The notes beneath the pieces are model-generated. The model worked only from the letters and a program-made list of their open reading frames with translations. It was not told the DNA's origin and did no database searches. A stretch of 64,000 nucleotides of DNA from contig JANWYT010000020.1 in assembly GCA_025055175.1 (NCBI GenBank), positions 62,001 through 126,000 of the forward strand, given 5' to 3'. The stretch is from Anaerolineae bacterium (lineage in GTDB: Bacteria; Chloroflexota; Anaerolineae; Aggregatilineales; Phototrophicaceae). Position 1 is the first letter of the stretch. Each line of letters begins with the position of its first letter. The position numbers were made by a program, and so were the translations under genes. Below, piece after piece: positions 62,272-62,441 of the stretch.

Positions 62272-62297
62272 AAAAACCGCCTGACGGGGCAGGCGGT
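62272..62297 (-). terminator. intrinsic terminator in the metG leader
   Basis: On the minus strand ACCGCCTG (62297-62290), loop CCCCGT, CAGGCGGT (62283-62276) and T-run (62276-62272). It lies after the leader ORF and about 80 bases before the metG ATG. Its 5' arm can also pair with GCAGGCGG at 62345-62338 in the leader. Confidence 0.88.
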
Positions 62298-62319
62298 GAA
62301 GTTGTTATGGCGTCGGCGC

Positions 62320-62406
62320 TCAGCCACATGAAATCATCCGCCTGCGAGAGCTTTCGGGGCGCATGGTCATGGGCATGAGGGCGCGATCGGTCGTGAGCGT
62401 ATTCAT
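62320..62406 (-). CDS. predicted Met-rich leader peptide of metG
   Basis: A 28-residue ORF with methionines at positions 1, 11, 13, 15 and 24, including the cluster ALMPMTMR. It is followed by a stop (TGA at 62322-62320), then 23 bases later the terminator. Within its 3' part (62345-62338) is the antiterminator strand GCAGGCGG, which pairs over 8 bp with the terminator's 5' arm plus one loop base. A ribosome stalled at the Met codons 11-15 would cover about up to 62349, leaving the antiterminator strand free. A ribosome at the stop would cover part of it. No Shine-Dalgarno is present; the ATG is seven bases after the -10 element, so the leader mRNA should be leaderless. Assignment is inference from layout. 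Confidence 0.6.
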   Translation of the reverse strand: MNTLTTDRALMPMTMRPESSRRRMISCG

Positions 62407-62413
62407 GCCGACG

Positions 62414-62441
62414 ATTATAACGCGCGCAGGCCAAAAGGCAA
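62414..62441 (-). promoter_or_regulatory. promoter of the metG leader
   Basis: On the minus strand TTGCCT (62441-62436), a 16-base spacer and TATAAT (62419-62414), then seven bases to the leader ATG at 62406. It starts just past the stop of the upstream minus-strand gene. Confidence 0.65.

Follow-up and report, generated by a model that had tools for sequence, protein, structure and literature searches.

A putative leader-peptide transcription attenuator with methionine codons in front of metG in Anaerolineae (Chloroflexota)

The methionyl-tRNA synthetase gene metG of an Anaerolineae bacterium is preceded by a promoter, a short Met-rich open reading frame (ORF) and an intrinsic terminator, which we read, with a probability of roughly 0.86, as a leader-peptide (ribosome-mediated) transcription attenuator sensing charged elongator Met-tRNA and controlling metG. 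The element lies in a stretch of 64,000 nucleotides (the window), and on sequence comparison its arrangement is conserved across most of the order to which this bacterium belongs. By its predicted anatomy it is a member of the leader-peptide transcription attenuators: a short ORF of predicted translation carries a cluster of codons cognate to the controlled gene, an intrinsic terminator stands between this ORF and the structural gene, and an antiterminator strand that excludes the terminator covaries with it, with compensatory pairs at two positions. The attenuator interpretation given in a preliminary description of the window is supported by the comparisons reported here. If it is true, more synthetase would very probably be made when charged Met-tRNA runs short.

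Table 1. Parts of the metG leader element in the window
Feature	Position	Strand	Remarks
Promoter, sigma-70 type, TTGCCT-16-TATAAT	62441-62414	minus	10/12 consensus matches
Met-rich leader peptide ORF, 28 codons, probably leaderless, encoding MNTLTTDRALMPMTMRPESSRRRMISCG, Met at 11, 13, 15 and 24	62406-62320	minus	
Putative sensor Met cluster, codons 11, 13 and 15 (AUG CCC AUG ACC AUG)	62376-62362	minus	
S2, antiterminator strand GCAGGCGG, inside the leader ORF	62345-62338	minus	
T5, terminator 5' arm, CCGCCTGC (RNA CCGCCUGC)	62296-62289	minus	partner either S2 or T3
Intrinsic terminator hairpin ACCGCCUG-CCCCGU-CAGGCGGU	62297-62276	minus	TTTTT tract to 62272
metG, methionyl-tRNA synthetase, 602 aa	62189-60381	minus	SD-like AGAAAGGA upstream

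The coordinates given in the preliminary description were all correct on recheck, and the reread sequence bears out its 28-codon ORF with the four Met positions. The gene product matches TIGR00398 with 478.6 bits (cut-off 336). When the two strands of the window were scanned blind, the combination of a promoter, an abutting short ORF and a terminator turned up only once. The terminator hairpin has a predicted folding energy of -13.4 kcal/mol. The previously proposed pairing of S2 with the terminator arm was likewise confirmed, with a duplex energy of -18.1 kcal/mol that was reached in none of 200 dinucleotide shuffles (z -4.0). The claim that terminator and antiterminator are mutually exclusive stands as well, T5 being able to pair with either S2 or T3, and the S2:T5 alternative being backed by covariation.

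From the observed parts, their conservation, spacing and covariation and their association with metG, we infer ribosome stalling, its coupling to RNA polymerase and the direction of regulation. A ribosome would begin translation at the very 5' end of the transcript or close to it. If Met-tRNA is ample, the ribosome would reach the stop codon and sit against the 3' side of S2; S2 would be barred from T5, the T5:T3 terminator would form and transcription would end before metG. With Met-tRNA in short supply the ribosome would stall at codons 11-15 with S2 emerging just ahead of it, S2 would pair with T5 as T5 is transcribed, no terminator would form and metG would be made. The 3' end of S2 is separated from the stop codon by 15-18 nt in the majority of leaders, a distance at the edge of the ribosome footprint; a ribosome terminating there would lie directly against S2 and occupy the space separating it from T5.

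A set of 43 leaders from the same family was aligned with MAFFT, pairing being ignored. In this alignment 91.5% of the S2:T5 cells are paired, compared with 29-44% in slid registers. Seven cells are changed on both sides, against 1.5 in shuffles, and the covariation is 0.163 versus 0.132, with none of 500 shuffles as good. Compensatory changes between S2 and the terminator arm, which the preliminary description had named as a check, are thus found in these seven double-changed cells; because the counts rest on two positions and on related sequences, the covariation supports rather than proves S2:T5. The window is itself a compensated case, with CGCAGGCGG and CCGCCTGCC replacing GACAGACGG and CCGTCTGTC. 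T5:T3 is 98% paired, T3 being nearly invariant and its G accepting U or C in T5. The idea that S2:T5 is always stronger than the terminator owing to G.U pairs in the latter was not supported (stronger in 21 of the 43 leaders).

The distance from the first base of the last Met codon to the start of S2 is 18 nt in 31 of the 43 leaders (range 15-27). For Met codon 15 of the window it is 19 nt to the paired GCAGGCGG and 18 nt in the register of the alignment. Given the usual ribosome footprint, 18 nt is a few bases past a ribosome stalled at that Met codon. ATG occurs inside the leaders 239 times in frame versus 22 and 16 times out of frame, in a set chosen partly on Met. Two leaders (L015 and L021) encode TDG instead of DRR across S2, the reading frame being different and the RNA sequence unchanged; this indicates selection on the RNA there.

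These features bear on an improbable alternative, in which the leader ORF is translated and the signal is other than Met-tRNA charging, namely an arrest peptide, a general slow-down of translation, or lost formyl-Met-tRNA initiation on a leaderless message. Leaderless initiation also needs Met-tRNA, a Met-rich leader alone leaves the signal unfixed, and R-R residues are conserved at S2; however, S2 itself accounts for R-R, which L015 and L021 have lost while keeping the RNA, the conserved features of the leader peptide in the alignment are the Met codons and their spacing while its other residues vary, and metG, the gene under control, encodes the cognate synthetase. Regulation by MetRS or another RNA-binding protein that binds a hairpin of the leader is less probable still: synthetase autoregulation is known for thrS in E. 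coli (mentioned in PMC2965389), but protein binding leaves the Met cluster, the 18-nt spacing and the position of S2 inside the ORF unexplained.

Very little probability falls to a riboswitch reading, in which the leader binds a tRNA (T-box) or a ligand (SAM riboswitch) and the ORF is accidental. A T-box does occur in this genome, at pheS; around the element of the window, on the other hand, no Rfam match was obtained up to E = 1, and the scan of 4227 families returned no SAM riboswitch or other leader match. At metG both the T-box core GGGUGGNACCGCG and a match to RF00230 are absent, the core being present in none of 30 metG loci versus 22 of 30 pheS loci, and the Met codons and frame of the leader are conserved. 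The pheS T-box leader of the same genome (L342:1068-1323) matches RF00230 at E 1.8e-13, its 68.5 bits falling short of the 93-bit gathering score, and a T-box core was seen before thrS in 4 of 30 relatives. One genome would hold two different tRNA-sensing systems for two synthetases, the T-box of pheS and the leader peptide of metG.

In a DNA search of the 271-nt leader against 60 relatives its own genome alone was matched; as the element is too diverged for such a search, the MetG protein was used for comparison. MetG is present in 100 of 101 near relatives, and the upstream DNA was examined in 90 genomes of the same order and at 80 loci nearly all from other orders or classes. The conservation test asked for a short ORF that has two or more internal Met codons and stops ahead of a terminator. 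It was passed by 44 of 55 metG loci of the same family and 28 of 35 from other families of the order, and further out by 11 of 61 from other orders of the class and 1 of 19 from other classes. Control genes in the same test gave 9 of 143 loci (hisS 3/30, thrS 3/30, pheS 0/30, metK 3/23, fmt 0/30), two of the three metK matches resembling coding sequence of the neighbouring gene; the same attenuator design was thus not seen for these five genes in these genomes. Co-conservation in related Chloroflexota had been the other check set by the preliminary description, and ORF, Met codons, an S2-type strand and terminator are indeed kept together. A chance arrangement, in which the terminator serves the gene upstream and the short ORF has no meaning, as the terminator's distance of about 150 nt from the end of the upstream ORF (62447) and the commonness of short ORFs might suggest, has next to no probability and, on comparison, is already refuted for the relatives, ORF, Met codons, S2 and terminator being conserved as a unit before metG, not before the five control genes, and the element staying with its promoter when the neighbouring genes change.

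The exact, Met-blind pattern GACAGACGG-N(33-62)-CCGTCTGTC has matches in 14 of 101 genomes, every one of them beside (upstream of) metG, and the reversed-pattern control matches in 2 of 101 genomes. All 14 leaders of this Met-blind set have 2-4 internal Met codons.

Partial cases from the same family that fail the conservation test are L013, with one internal Met, and L040 and L046, where the fetched DNA begins inside the element. The attenuator is absent from some relatives (L024, L061 and the three g19 genomes L066, L068 and L073), and in L011 the terminator is kept with a leader ORF decayed to 9 codons and no internal Met; because of these relatives and of L011 the attenuator cannot be essential. 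L011 is a natural broken or rewired case. At seven loci (L006, L015, L021, L050, L175, L184 and L191) the attenuator lies 600-1040 nt upstream of metG and ahead of a gene that precedes it, a placement indicating that it belongs to the promoter of the operon.

The TATAAT box of the window ends 7 nt before the leader ATG; as this is the usual distance from -10 to +1, transcription is predicted to start at or beside the A of the ATG, and the leader ORF is probably leaderless. A TANNNT box is found 5-8 nt before the leader start in 39 of 55 metG loci of the same family and 12 of 35 others of the order (51 of 90 in total), compared with none of the 143 control loci, where a -10 box abutting the ORF start was looked for. 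The -35 box is near-perfect (5 or 6 of 6) in 62 of 75 promoters, a set selected partly on the -35 score. L007 and L006 have a longer distance between -10 box and ATG, so the leaderless spacing is not universal. Such a -10 signal was taken as a mark of leaderless genes in the survey PMC3160421, which estimates leaderless genes at about 5% in the 4 of 12 Chloroflexi genomes where they were detected.

A more specific form of the attenuator reading is tentative, and we would put it somewhat below even odds: a Met-specific attenuator on a leaderless message would read failure of initiation and failure of elongation, both of which need charged Met-tRNA, separately, and would be the first methionine member of its class, evolved in Chloroflexota beside T-boxes for other synthetases of the same genome. 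Stalling at internal Met codons would then lead to read-through, and lack of initiation may lead to termination in leaders with a protecting hairpin.

In an occlusion model of the window the antiterminator takes 96% and the terminator 4% when the ribosome is stalled at codon 15, and the terminator 43% when it is at the stop codon. With the ribosome removed the terminator reaches 88%, S2 then being paired to a neighbouring upstream strand. Equilibrium folding of 48 leaders of the same type does not separate the states, the median P(terminator) being 0.94 for the stalled ribosome versus 0.88 for the ribosome at the stop codon; kinetics, that is co-transcriptional timing, must therefore matter. 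When the same 48 leaders are folded with T3 not yet made, T5 is more paired in the stalled state than at the stop codon in 14 and less paired in 2. As a proof of switching, equilibrium folding was rejected, being positive for the window and negative across the 48 leaders. The preliminary description had seen no clear 1:2 hairpin. This holds in so far as no strong one is conserved in the same family, the window having a weak predicted sequestration of S2; it needs qualifying in that S2 is predicted to be paired upstream without a ribosome, and a predicted hairpin of this kind is clear in sister families.

In the sister families the leader continues with ..MRLPWS..RRW.., and a strand that begins a few nucleotides past the last Met codon is able to pair, as a long stem, with one lying immediately ahead of T5. 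Such a predicted stem was noted in L054, L055, L058, L062, L065 and L091 and in L047, L048, L059 and L090; the pairing analysis covered ten loci. The strands are GCTTGCCGTG/CACGGCAAGC in L054 and GCGAGCCG/CGGCTCGC in L059, and in L065 the pair is changed to CTGCCGTGG/CCACGGCAG. By analogy with classical four-strand attenuators, the first of these strands would be hidden under a ribosome positioned at the Met codons. In families whose terminator arm departs from CCG[CT][CT]TG, a plain S2:T5 duplex mostly fails to exceed chance; there other pairings must act. The leaderless start, the fixed distance from Met codon to S2 and the protecting stem of sister families are absent from the preliminary description.

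Met-rich metG leaders, predicted to be mostly leaderless and with up to 7 internal Met codons, were also seen in other orders of Anaerolineae (L131, L219, L224, L225, L227-L229, L231), with sequence and terminator wholly different from those of the window. L131, L224, L225 and L227-L229 have unrelated leaders, e.g. MKFTSAFPMVPMTMAMQMEMFTCAKWKA, before a GGCTGTCC...GGACAGCC terminator, and simple pairing found no antiterminator in the other-order leaders. Independent origin or deep divergence is perhaps the explanation.

Of all amino acids, only methionine is carried by a tRNA that is also required to start translation, which makes it an inconvenient signal for leader peptides to read. If conserved Met leaders serve metG, this would demonstrate that such a design is in use and that leader-peptide attenuation reaches into a further phylum. 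The variants, two-strand or protected and leaderless or not, form a natural series for testing how such switches evolve, and the metG leader points to a whole family missing from Rfam and from short-ORF annotation.

The attenuator class as such is known; the sensed amino acid and the gene appear to be new, and the start is probably leaderless. Leader-peptide attenuators of synthetase genes are described for pheST of E. coli and for trpS and leuS of Streptomyces (PMC1262725) as well as for hisS paralogues of Firmicutes (PMC2965389). The metG element shares with them a short ORF rich in cognate codons, competing antiterminator and intrinsic terminator, and a synthetase gene downstream, but differs in amino acid, gene and phylum, in its probably leaderless start and, in the same-family version, in having no conserved strong 1:2 hairpin. 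For methionine operons of Actinobacteria no conserved RNA structure was reported (PMC1262725). In the ilvB1 attenuator of Mycobacterium tuberculosis a ribosome that has reached the stop codon covers about 26 nt, so that no antiterminator forms (PMC13236596), much as proposed for metG, and again two hairpins are exclusive; it differs in using codons for branched-chain amino acids and in serving a biosynthesis gene. Mycobacterial leaderless poly-cysteine short ORFs, described in passages of PMC13236596 that cite Canestrari 2020, control a downstream operon and resemble the metG leader in being leaderless and rich in the sensed amino acid; they differ in sensing cysteine and, according to the same passages, in acting by translation attenuation with no terminator. 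Met T-boxes of Firmicutes, T-boxes being reported for Chloroflexi too (PMC2494555), do the job proposed for the metG leader, raising Met genes when Met-tRNA is uncharged, but they have no leader peptide, read the tRNA directly and are absent at metG here. The preliminary description knew of no metG case in this phylum, and in the open-licence PMC papers searched we likewise found no leader-peptide attenuator for Met or metG and none from Chloroflexota; the survey of synthetase-operon attenuators by Lopatovskaya et al. 2010 (Mol Biol 44:128), beyond that scope, could contain one.

Where the database scan gave a named match, it was always to a metagenome-assembled genome (MAG) of Anaerolineae/Chloroflexi, with MetG identities as low as about 50%. 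Two records titled 'Pleurocapsa minor GSE-CHR-MK-17-07R' (L194) and 'Bacteroidetes bacterium labscale reactor_MAG9' (L191) have an Anaerolineae-type metG (67-69% identity) with the attenuator; their titles look wrong or their bins mixed. A TACAAT or TATAAT box was observed between terminator and metG in L054, L055, L058, L062, L014 and L023, and might, as a second promoter, allow transcription to start past the attenuator.
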